From NCBI GenBank assembly GCA_024279275.1, contig JAJRRS010000063.1:1-35132 (forward strand): DNA of 35,132 bases, written 5' to 3'. Source of the stretch: Planctomycetota bacterium (GTDB lineage Bacteria; Planctomycetota; Phycisphaerae; Phycisphaerales; Phycisphaeraceae). Under the pieces are notes generated by a model. The model was not told the origin of the DNA, made no database searches, and saw only the letters and a program-made list of their open reading frames with translations. Positions 8,655 through 11,897 of this stretch are shown here, one piece after another. A program made the position numbers and the translations under genes. How positions within the stretch are numbered: position 1 is the first letter of the stretch; each line of letters opens with the position of its first letter.

Positions 8655-9812
8655 TCAGATGTGATCCTGATTAGAGAAGCCCAGCGGCAGCGGACACCAT
8701 GAAGCGAGGATTGATGCCGACTCGGGCAAGGCGGTGACTGTAGAGGTTGGTCCCGGGCCGAACAGAAGACGGGTCGTGGTCAAAGAGTCTAAGGCCATGT
8801 CTGGTTTGCGATCGGTTGCCTGGCAACGTGCTCCGTCTGCATCGACTGTGAGTAAGATCGTAGATGCCGAATCCTTGATGTGTAGCACAACTGAGCCGTG
8901 CGGCAGTGGGTTAGCTGCGTGTTGAGCCTTGATTAATGCATCAACAACGGTTGCCCAATTGAATATCTGCCAGTTGCCGCTGGATTCTATGCGCAGCGTC
9001 TCTGCGAATTCGTTGAGCCGACGGAGTACCGGGCTGGCTGGGGTTTGCAACAGCACCTTGACACGTTCGGTGACTTGATTGACCCAGGCCCGAACAATCT
9101 GCGATGCTGCTTCTGGGTTCTCAGCGACCAGTTCATTCAGCACGAGATTGTCGCGGTTGGGTGTGATGTAGCCGACGATCTTTCCGTTGTGATTGCGAGC
9201 GAGGGCCGGGCGGCTGTGCCAGCTACAGAGGTAGTTGTAGAAAGTTTCAATCGGTCGGATGCAGTGCAATGGTTGTGCATCGTGTAAGGCCTTGAGCGTG
9301 GCGATGGTGTCGGCGTCGTCTATCACAGGTTCCAATGACAACACATCATCCTGGTCGGCGAAGGCGTGACGGGCATTGTCTTTGAGGAAAGACAGGCTGT
9401 AGGTCGTCCCCGCCACCTCATAGCCGAAGTAAGCATAACGCTGACGACGACCGCCTAGATAAGACAGATCATATCCCGTGCGGCGCATCTCGGCGACGGC
9501 GTGGTTCATCAGGAACCTCATGTAGCCCTTGCCGCGTGAATCGGGGTGGACCGCAACACCACCGACACCGGCGACTTTTAGTGTGACATCGCCAACGCGC
9601 CAGTGAATCGGGAAGACACCGACGACCGCAGCGAGTTGGCCGTTTTCACTTCGCACGGCGTAGTTGCAACGCATATGCTCGTCGGTCGGTTGATAGATCG
9701 ACGGGAGCAGGTTGGCGAAGTCGTGCGGGGCATGTTCGCCGAACACTTCGTTGAGGAAGCACATCGCCTCATCGAAGTCGCTTGCCTGTAGTTGAATGAT
9801 CTGGCTGGTCAT
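8655..9812 (-). CDS. GNAT-family N-acetyltransferase with C-terminal SCP2-like domain (Eis-like)
   Basis: 385 residues, about the length of Eis-type proteins. The N-terminal GNAT fold has the acetyl-CoA loop VAVHPDSRGKGYMRFLMNHAV (near residue 88) preceded by the beta-4 VAGVGGVAV. A second degenerate GNAT-like half follows. The last about 80 residues (VVLHIKDSASTILLTVDADGA... LDSLTTTRLLFGPG) resemble the SCP2-like sterol-carrier fold found in Eis relatives. Acceptor unknown. It starts 9 nt after the DAHP synthase stop and probably shares its mRNA. TAGCAT, which includes that stop codon, also ends 6 nt before the ATG, so an internal leaderless promoter is possible. Confidence 0.85.
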   Translation of the reverse strand: MTSQIIQLQASDFDEAMCFLNEVFGEHAPHDFANLLPSIYQPTDEHMRCNYAVRSENGQLAAVVGVFPIHWRVGDVTLKVAGVGGVAVHPDSRGKGYMRFLMNHAVAEMRRTGYDLSYLGGRRQRYAYFGYEVAGTTYSLSFLKDNARHAFADQDDVLSLEPVIDDADTIATLKALHDAQPLHCIRPIETFYNYLCSWHSRPALARNHNGKIVGYITPNRDNLVLNELVAENPEAASQIVRAWVNQVTERVKVLLQTPASPVLRRLNEFAETLRIESSGNWQIFNWATVVDALIKAQHAANPLPHGSVVLHIKDSASTILLTVDADGARCQATDRKPDMALDSLTTTRLLFGPGPTSTVTALPESASILASWCPLPLGFSNQDHI

Positions 9813-9821
9813 GCGTGCATG

Positions 9822-10889
9822 CTAACGGGTCGCTGCCTCCTCGACACAGGGGGAGACGGGGGACCCGGGGGTGCATTCCTTATCGACGGCCTGGGCGACA
9901 CGTTGGAGACTGACCATCAACTCGGTAAGAACATCGGGGGTGATGGATTGAGCGCCGTCGGTGAGTGCGTGCTGGGGGTCCTGGTGCATCTCGATTGCGA
10001 GGCCGTCGCAGCCTGCGGCGATGGCGGCTTTGGCCATGGCAGGAACGAGTCGGGCGTGGCCCGTGCCGTGGGACGGGTCGATGACGATGGGGAGGTGCGT
10101 GCGGAACTGTAACTCGGGCACGACGGAGAGGCTGAGCGTGTTGCGGGTGTGGTCCTCGAATGTGCGGATGCCGCGTTCGCAGAGGATGACGTTGGGGTTG
10201 CCGGCGGCGAGGATGTATTCGCTTGCCTGGAGCCACTCGTCGATAGTCATCGCCATGCCGCGCTTAAAGAGGACGGGCTTGGGCTGCTTGCCGCAGGCTT
10301 CCAGGAGCTTGTAGTTCTGGCTGTTGCGTGTGCCGATCTGCAGGCAGTCAGCGTATTTGCTGACCAGATCGACCTCGCTTGGGGTCAGGACTTCGGTGAC
10401 GATGGGCAGGCCTGTCTCGTCACGGGCGGCGGCGAGCATTTTCAGGCCGTCCTCGCCGTGCCCCTGAAAAGCGTAGGGGTTGGTGCGTGGCTTGAAAGCC
10501 CCGCCGCGTAGGGCGTGTGCGCCGGCGGCCTTGACCGCACGGGCGGCGACGATGATTTTTTCTTCATCTTCAACGCTGCAGGGGCCAGCGATTACCGGGA
10601 CGTGTTTGCCACCGAACACGCATCCGCCGCCGATATCGACCAGGGTCTTCTTGCCTTCGCGGGTTTCCTTGGCCGCCATCTTGTAAGGGGCAAGCACCTT
10701 CATGACCCGATCGACGCCCGGGGCCTGCTCCAGCACGGAGCCGTCCTTCTTGCGGTCGTCACCGATCACCGCCACCACCGTCAGGTCTGAGCCTTCGATG
10801 ATGTGTTCGGTGAGTTCCAGGTCTCGTATCAGTTTCACCACGTGCTGCACTTCCTGCTTGGTTGCGTCTGCTCTCATTACTACGATCAT
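9822..10889 (-). CDS. 3-deoxy-7-phosphoheptulonate (DAHP) synthase, type I-beta
   Basis: Condenses phosphoenolpyruvate and erythrose 4-phosphate, the first step of the shikimate pathway. The N-terminal about 70 residues form the ferredoxin-like regulatory domain (MIVVMRADATKQEVQHVV) found in Thermotoga-type enzymes. The catalytic barrel follows, with the GPC metal cysteine (102-104), the substrate-binding KPR (133-135), IGTRNSQNY, FKRGM, CERGIRTFE and the metal histidine in IDPSHGTGH. All expected residues are present. AAGGAG at 10897-10902 lies 7 nt before the ATG. The tail CTPGSPVSPC is a small in-frame copy of the G/C-rich repeat (9848-9873). Expression appears to be controlled by an aromatic leader peptide and attenuator (10997-11163). 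Confidence 0.95.
   Translation of the reverse strand: MIVVMRADATKQEVQHVVKLIRDLELTEHIIEGSDLTVVAVIGDDRKKDGSVLEQAPGVDRVMKVLAPYKMAAKETREGKKTLVDIGGGCVFGGKHVPVIAGPCSVEDEEKIIVAARAVKAAGAHALRGGAFKPRTNPYAFQGHGEDGLKMLAAARDETGLPIVTEVLTPSEVDLVSKYADCLQIGTRNSQNYKLLEACGKQPKPVLFKRGMAMTIDEWLQASEYILAAGNPNVILCERGIRTFEDHTRNTLSLSVVPELQFRTHLPIVIDPSHGTGHARLVPAMAKAAIAAGCDGLAIEMHQDPQHALTDGAQSITPDVLTELMVSLQRVAQAVDKECTPGSPVSPCVEEAATR
9848..9873. repeat. G-rich repeat remnant at the DAHP synthase C-terminus
   Basis: GGGGGAGACGGGGGACCCGG is a degenerate copy of the GGGGGAACC repeat. On the coding strand it gives TPGSPVSP just before the end of the enzyme, beyond the conserved barrel. Confidence 0.6.
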
Positions 10890-10996: not shown

Positions 10997-11025
10997 AAAA
11001 AAACCCCAACGCTTCCGCGTCAGGG
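10997..11025 (-). terminator. Attenuator: intrinsic terminator between leader peptide and DAHP synthase
   Basis: On the minus strand, arm 3 CCCTGACGC (11025-11017) and arm 4 GCGTTGGGG (11012-11004) enclose a GGAA loop. The 9-bp stem includes two G-U pairs and runs straight into seven T residues (11003-10997). Arm 4's GCGTTGGG is repeated exactly as arm 2 inside the leader ORF (11072-11065), so arm 3 can pair with either. Arm 1 GACGC (11082-11078) can pair with GCGTT of arm 2. The terminator sits about 108 nt before the DAHP synthase start and has no protein-coding gene between. Confidence 0.88.
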
Positions 11026-11054
11026 TCGTGATTCGTCAAACTTTTAATAGTTGA

Positions 11055-11126
11055 CTACTCCGTTCCCAACGCGGTATGCGTCCGAGTAAACCAGAAATAG
11101 CCAAAAAAGAAGGATTTCGCGTTCAT
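11055..11126 (-). CDS. Aromatic amino-acid leader peptide of DAHP synthase
   Basis: A 23-codon ORF reads MNAKSFFFGYFWFTRTHTAL followed by GTE and TAG. Seven of residues 6-13 are aromatic (F6, F7, F8, Y10, F11, W12, F13), covering all three aromatic amino acids. This suits control of the common first enzyme of their synthesis and resembles the E. coli pheL leader in style. The codons for attenuator arm 1 (15-17) and arm 2 (19-21) lie just after the aromatic run. A ribosome stalled at codons 11-13 would mask arm 1 and free arm 2. No Shine-Dalgarno is seen; the ATG lies 9 nt after the -10 box, so the mRNA would be almost leaderless. Confidence 0.88.
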   Translation of the reverse strand: MNAKSFFFGYFWFTRTHTALGTE

Positions 11127-11135
11127 GGTGAGTTA

Positions 11136-11163
11136 AGTATCCCACAGAATCACGGGTTGTCAA
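11136..11163 (-). promoter_or_regulatory. Promoter of the leader peptide-DAHP synthase transcript
   Basis: A perfect TTGACA (11163-11158) and GATACT (11141-11136, 4 of 6) are 16 nt apart. The predicted start lies about 2-3 nt before the leader ATG. The -35 box lies in an imperfect inverted repeat, CACGGTTG...CAACCCGTG with one bulged base (11151-11168), a possible repressor site. The remaining stretch to the nuoC stop (11169-11321) shows no gene. Confidence 0.78.
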
Positions 11164-11321
11164 CCGTGGGGTGGGATTTATCCTGGATTAAGAGGGGCGT
11201 GTGTCTGAGTGCTGGCAAGGCCCCCGGCCCTTCGCTGCGATCAGAACCGGCGATGGGACCCCGGTTTCTTGCTCTTTGGTTATCGACACTACCCCAGTCC
11301 CAAGACCCCAGCATGGTCGGA

Positions 11322-11897
11322 TCACGCGCTGTCGCGGTCGATGACGAGGTGTTCTTCGCGCTCGCCTCGGCCGTTGACGGGGTAGTCTTTGCGTAGGGGA
11401 TGGGCGGGGTAGTCTTCCCATAGGAGGATTCGGCGAAGGTCGGGGTGTGCGTCGAAACGGATGCCGAACATGTCGAAGACCTCGCGTTCGGTCCACTCGG
11501 CGCCGGGCCAGATGCCGCAGACGCTTGGGATATGCAGGGCCGGGTCGTCTTCGATGCCGCTGGTGTCGAGGGTCGGGTCGAGCATCACCTTCACGAACAG
11601 GCGGTGGTTGTGCGGGTAGCTGACGAGGTTGTAGACCACGCCGAAGCGTCCCTTGGGGGCGGGGTTGTCTGAGTCGGGGTTCCCGGGATAGTTCAGATAA
11701 TCGACGCAGGTTACGTCGGAGAGGAAATTGTATTGGCAACGCTCATCGCTGTGAAGAAAGGCCATGACTTCCAAGAGGTCGGCCTTGTCGATGATGAGTG
11801 TGGTCTGGCCACGGAACTCGGTGGCGAAGAGTTTACGCCCAGCGAATTTCTGCTTGACAAAAGGGAGTGTCGGGTGATCGAGGTTGGGTGTGGTCAT
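11322..11897 (-). CDS. nuoC: NADH-quinone oxidoreductase subunit C
   Basis: A 191-residue, 30-kDa-type subunit of complex I that sits in the peripheral arm near the quinone-reducing subunit NuoD. The signature TEREVFDMFGIRFDAHPDLRRILLWEDYPAHPLRKDYPV is complete (quoted here as its parts: EREVFDMFG, HPDLRRILL, HPLRKDYPV, residues about 137-173). The N-terminal half (FLSDVTCVDYL, VVYNLVSYPHNHRL) also fits. No other nuo gene is in the window; its neighbours are a hypothetical upstream and the attenuator promoter downstream. It may belong to a dispersed complex I gene set. Confidence 0.93.
   Translation of the reverse strand: MTTPNLDHPTLPFVKQKFAGRKLFATEFRGQTTLIIDKADLLEVMAFLHSDERCQYNFLSDVTCVDYLNYPGNPDSDNPAPKGRFGVVYNLVSYPHNHRLFVKVMLDPTLDTSGIEDDPALHIPSVCGIWPGAEWTEREVFDMFGIRFDAHPDLRRILLWEDYPAHPLRKDYPVNGRGEREEHLVIDRDSA

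Follow-up and report, generated by a model that had tools for sequence, protein, structure and literature searches.

The window, the whole 35,132-nucleotide stretch of planctomycete DNA analyzed here, encodes a DAHP synthase and, upstream of it in the same direction, a gene of the complex I 30-kDa subunit family. Between the two genes are a promoter, a short ORF rich in aromatic codons and an intrinsic terminator. From upstream to downstream the features are as follows.

11322 to 11897, minus strand: gene of the complex I 30-kDa subunit family, upstream of the leader and in the same direction
11158 to 11163, minus strand: -35 box TTGACA, kept as TTGAC(A/T) in relatives
11136 to 11141, minus strand: -10 box GATACT with extended TG, separated from the -35 box by a 16-nt spacer and ending 9 nt before the leader ATG
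11055 to 11126, minus strand: leader peptide ORF of 23 codons, MNAKSFFFGYFWFTRTHTALGTE, from the ATG at 11126 to a TAG; kept in 5/5 genomes of the genus and in the majority of the family
11088 to 11096, minus strand: putative control codons F11 W12 F13; the last Phe codon, TTT, is invariant in 24 aligned leaders
11078 to 11083, minus strand: arm 1, GGACGC, a candidate protector with arm 2 as its partner; in the window 1:2 pairs at -8.5 kcal/mol, while in leaders beyond the genus the pairing is weak
11065 to 11074, minus strand: arm 2, CCGCGTTGGG, predicted 5' arm of the antiterminator, within the leader codons; own-arm pairing and covariation
11015 to 11024, minus strand: arm 3 in the form that pairs with arm 2, CCTGACGCGG, predicted 3' arm of the antiterminator; covariation with arm 2
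11002 to 11027, minus strand: intrinsic terminator hairpin (arms 3:4), GACCCTGACGC GGAA GCGTTGGGGTT, about -17.4 kcal/mol
10997 to 11003, minus strand: terminator T run of seven T, read from the sequence
9822 to 10889, minus strand: DAHP synthase, type I-beta, with an N-terminal ferredoxin-like (FXD) domain, starting at 10889

On re-reading the sequence, the TTGACA-16-GATACT promoter, the 23-codon leader and the terminator are all where the earlier note had placed them. The note was also correct that arm 2 (GCGTTGGG, 11072-11065) has the same letters as arm 4 (11012-11005), and that the GACGC of arm 1 (11082-11078) is found again inside arm 3. The leader carries seven aromatic residues in eight positions (F6 F7 F8 Y10 F11 W12 F13). 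Among the 480 small ORFs of the 35-kb window, it alone has at least five aromatics in eight residues. The computed folding energy of the leader RNA is -47.3 kcal/mol compared to -31.2 +/- 3.4 for shuffled sequences (z -4.8). Scanning the region with Rfam 15 gave no match to a T-box or other cis-regulatory RNA even at E<=1, and a scan of eight distant leader loci gave none at the gathering score. About 10 nt beyond the stop codon of DAHP synthase begins a GNAT acetyltransferase gene (8655-9812) with weak similarity to Eis-type models. It may be co-transcribed with DAHP synthase under the same attenuator.

To determine how widely the leader is kept, we took the regions upstream of DAHP synthase from genomes sharing its genus, family, order, class or phylum. 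The motif FFFGYFWF is encoded in all five other genomes of the genus, where the Y10 and F11 codons show synonymous changes only and the flanking residues vary. Among same-family regions, 27 of 31 have a leader before DAHP synthase, as do all five from a sister family, a strongly positive outcome for the conservation of aromatic codons that the earlier note had proposed to look for in relatives. By a strict count, requiring at least six aromatics in eight residues and taking the expectation from dinucleotide shuffles, 20 of the 31 same-family regions qualify (0.07 expected), along with 5/5 from the sister family (0.00 expected) and 6/58 from the rest of the class (0.04 expected). The remaining four same-family genomes lack a leader; in at least three of the four, a tRNA gene lies immediately upstream.

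Leaders are also present in other classes of Planctomycetota and in records from Bythopirellula, Pirellula, Planctomicrobium and Roseimaritima sediminicola. One same-family leader (genome G035) is the same as that of 'Planctomycetes bacterium syqfu' (CP087563.1), and one same-class leader (L060) differs very little from the leader of a Phycisphaerales MAG (L158). On this basis Phycisphaerae is the most likely class of the source. In two loci, L114 (G257:C169) and L124 (G071:C351), the aromatic leader and terminator come before serS, encoding seryl-tRNA synthetase, and DAHP synthase is next downstream. Adjacency of serS and the DAHP synthase gene is common in several Phycisphaerae families.

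Phe, Tyr and Trp are encoded together in 26 of the 32 leaders from the family and sister family and in 18 of 20 from other classes. One explanation for such leaders is nascent-chain arrest, in which the peptide itself would stall the ribosome, triggered by a free metabolite (tryptophan in the case of TnaC) rather than by an uncharged tRNA. Consistent with arrest, a YFWF motif is nearly conserved in the genus and family, and the cluster stays aromatic over very wide distances, ending within the family in an invariant Phe codon. Against it, leaders outside the family permute their aromatics freely, in order as well as identity (WSYYRFYF, FSGYYWFAF, NFYYFRYYY, GWYRFTFWY). Such permutation suits the counting of codons and not a sequence-specific arrest motif, and we consider arrest an improbable account of the leader.

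A terminator follows the leader stop by 10-45 nt in 39 of 41 leaders. In an alignment of 24 same-family leaders (A1), the 2:3 helix is paired in 88% of cells compared to 28-46% when slid one to three columns. Both sides have changed in seven of its ten pairs, and none of 500 shuffles had as many, so the covariation of the arms that the earlier note proposed to seek in relatives is there. At columns 72/135, for example, G-C is replaced by A-U in five sequences, and in leader L020 C-G becomes U-A and C-G becomes A-U at 68/139 and 69/138. The terminator helix likewise holds on the alignment.

Independently of the alignment, we paired each leader tail with its own terminator arm 3. The pairing came to -14.0 kcal/mol versus -11.6 when the arms were permuted (0/20000), and a permutation limited to leaders from outside the family again gave 0/20000. 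Repeating the test on a further 28 leaders, taken from other families as well as other classes and phyla, gave the same outcome (-15.2 versus -11.6, 0/20000). A covariance model (R1) trained on the family leaders, with those of the sister family left out, retrieved the sister-family leaders at 5e-9 to 9e-5, each before DAHP synthase. Searching the window genome with R1 yielded no second significant match. We attribute three weak hits of the covariance model (L112, L113 and L115) to chance; the hit to L114, the leader before serS noted above, was judged real.

Support for the putative protector hairpin 1:2 is local. The earlier note had included 1:2 among the mutually exclusive pairings, and within the window's genus the hairpin stands out (p 0.01-0.04 for five of six genomes). 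It is weak elsewhere, with p<0.1 against shuffled sequence in 26% of leaders, leaving a protector hairpin unsupported as a general feature outside the genus.

The -10 box of the leader promoter ends about 6-11 nt before the leader start codon in 30 of the 32 family and sister-family leaders, while shuffles predict 0.46 within 11 nt. Several leaders from other families and classes have a similarly short distance. Transcription starting about 7 nt downstream of the -10 box would give a 5' UTR of about 0-4 nt, with no room for a Shine-Dalgarno site. The leader mRNA is therefore probably leaderless, and its translation would initiate without a 5' UTR.

The position of the promoter also bears on whether the leader is a chance small ORF lying before a constitutive terminator of the upstream gene. 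That gene, for the complex I 30-kDa subunit, is co-directional and needs a terminator. However, a strong promoter lies between it and the terminator, no more than 11 nt from the leader ATG in the 30 relatives just described, and both the leader and the 2:3 helix are conserved, the latter with covariation. A chance ORF is thus very improbable, more so than arrest. Least credible is that the leader encodes a functional small hydrophobic protein with the RNA structure incidental, as its N-terminal half is hydrophobic and retains its aromatic character but its C-terminal half is preserved as an RNA arm that matches the terminator, and length and sequence differ widely between families.

We conclude that the region is, with a probability of about 0.92, a ribosome-mediated transcription attenuator of the trp/phe type that would control the cell's only DAHP synthase. 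It combines a leader ORF in which codons for the pathway's end products are abundant, a terminator before the gene, and exclusive 2:3 and 3:4 pairings with arm 2 within reach of the ribosome.

The spacing in the leaders is fixed, with a median gap of 11 nt (IQR 9.5-12) from the last aromatic codon to arm 2. A ribosome reaches about 11 nt downstream of its A-site. Taking 11 nt as covered by the ribosome, we modeled folding of the window RNA for each A-site position. The predicted terminator probability was 0.07 at W12, 0.21 at F13, 0.79 at T14, 0.95 at R15 and 0.98 at the stop. The modeled RNA thus antiterminates with the A-site up to codon 13 and terminates from codon 14-15 on, in agreement with the earlier proposal that a ribosome held at codons 11-13 would allow readthrough and one at the stop would let the terminator form. 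That proposal also expected a minimum-energy fold to reproduce both stems. The antiterminator 2:3 did appear, in a nested state with 1:4, while the terminator was not the minimum.

The folding model was extended to 39 leaders, treating arm 4 as still to be transcribed. Arm 3 was sequestered in 38 of the 39 when the ribosome stood on the final aromatic codons and in two when it stood at the stop, a result unchanged for assumed footprints of 9-13 nt. At full equilibrium with all four arms present, the antiterminator was ahead at the last aromatic codon in just 11 of 39 leaders, and the terminator prevailed in many relatives. Folding of all arms at equilibrium was therefore dropped as a universal test of the switch in favor of the arm-4-absent test. 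The low count suggests that the switch relies on 2:3 forming first and that the order of synthesis must matter. For the window RNA, a stall before codon 11 or no translation at all likewise favors the antiterminator at equilibrium, so basal termination would depend on kinetics.

In the proposed mechanism, transcription would begin only shortly before the leader AUG, and a ribosome would load on the nearly leaderless 5' end. A shortage of charged tRNA-Phe, -Tyr or -Trp would stall this ribosome in the F-G-Y-F-W-F cluster. A stall at codons 11-13 is predicted to cover arm 1 and leave arm 2, about 12 nt downstream, available to pair with arm 3 as it emerges; the terminator would then be blocked and DAHP synthase transcribed. 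With all three tRNAs charged, the ribosome would reach the stop and cover arm 2, arm 3 would pair with arm 4, and transcription would end near 10997. How strongly each amino acid acts can be suggested from the codons. Phe and Trp may weigh most in sensing, given that the last codon is invariably Phe and the preceding one usually Trp.

The window genome (3.76 Mb, estimated to be 94.9% complete) encodes one DAHP synthase that we could find. The sole other hit was a KDO8P synthase, and a type II DAHP synthase is absent. Among relatives, no comparable leader was found before trpE in 30 loci, two of them with little or no usable upstream sequence, or before pheA in 26 loci. The element is thus not a general feature of aromatic genes in these bacteria. 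Together with the single DAHP synthase, this suggests control is placed at the common entry and counts all three end products. Three amino acids would be combined in one leader before the cell's only DAHP synthase, and entry to aromatic amino acid synthesis would be under conserved control in several families and classes of Planctomycetota.

Most work on ribosome-mediated attenuation has been done in Proteobacteria and Actinobacteria. In the trp and pheA/pheST attenuators of Proteobacteria, leader codons overlap the mutually exclusive arms 1:2, 2:3 and 3:4. The planctomycete leader codons similarly overlap exclusive arms, with 1:2 weakly conserved. Unlike the element described here, which sits at the entry step, the proteobacterial attenuators act on terminal branches or a tRNA synthetase and each senses one amino acid. 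The earlier note knew of no description in planctomycetes, and we likewise found none in the open-access literature, where the search for planctomycete attenuators led solely to a general study of leader-gene distance (PMC4833913).

Precedents for an attenuator at DAHP synthase do exist outside the planctomycetes. In Corynebacterium glutamicum, aroR-aroF is attenuated through Phe-Tyr-Phe codons (Neshat 2014, as summarized in PMC11802643; PMC4046766). According to these summaries it responds to Phe and not to Tyr limitation (PMC11802643, PMC4046766). Like the planctomycete element, it has a leader peptide with aromatic codons before a DAHP synthase gene, regulated by attenuation. C. glutamicum, an actinobacterium, encodes Phe-Tyr-Phe only and has two DAHP synthases, in contrast to Phe, Tyr and Trp and one DAHP synthase here. 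Also similar is uORFC-13-1, a candidate motif of Acholeplasma aroF whose uORF contains one or more Phe codons and is followed directly by an intrinsic terminator (PMC8632094), and thus a Phe-coding uORF and terminator upstream of a DAHP synthase gene. It differs in being limited to Acholeplasma and environmental sequence and in having a ribosome-binding site, with no mixed Phe/Tyr/Trp cluster described (PMC8632094). The predicted lack of a Shine-Dalgarno site would be shared with the polycysteine attenuators of mycobacteria, reported as leaderless (Canestrari 2020, as cited in PMC13236596), and with the C. glutamicum ilvB leader, reported to have no ribosome-binding site (cited in PMC4046766), though these involve other amino acids, other genes and another phylum.

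Transcription-translation coupling is disputed for a planctomycete. An attenuator of this kind works only with a ribosome close behind RNA polymerase, so its conservation argues for coupling in Planctomycetota over the proposed spatial segregation. On balance we lean towards a phylum-wide attenuator at the shikimate entry, in which a mixed Phe/Tyr/Trp leader without a 5' UTR would report the charging of three tRNAs and which depends on such coupling. The conserved attenuator would provide a simple genetic test of coupling in these bacteria.

Beyond the Planctomycetota, single aromatic leaders were seen upstream of DAHP synthase in records from Chloroflexi, Calditrichota, Clostridia and Brachyspira. 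We regard these as leads and not as established cases. Aromatic-dense small ORFs precede DAHP synthase in Clostridia and Brachyspira (L219, L229, L234 and L217). The three Clostridia records have a terminator with no clear antiterminator arm, and no terminator was found for L217. The proposed leaders of Clostridia and Calditrichota are without a clear 2:3 match. In the Calditrichota locus (L202, about -175 to -40 before the gene), the 3' arm of the terminator is repeated by the first leader codons and not the last, and the geometry of the switch may be different. The L234 leader has a clear Shine-Dalgarno site. At the start of a Chloroflexi locus (L206), an aromatic leader and terminator precede an ORF that, in our own reading of the sequence, resembles an AroH-type chorismate mutase and is followed by DAHP synthase.
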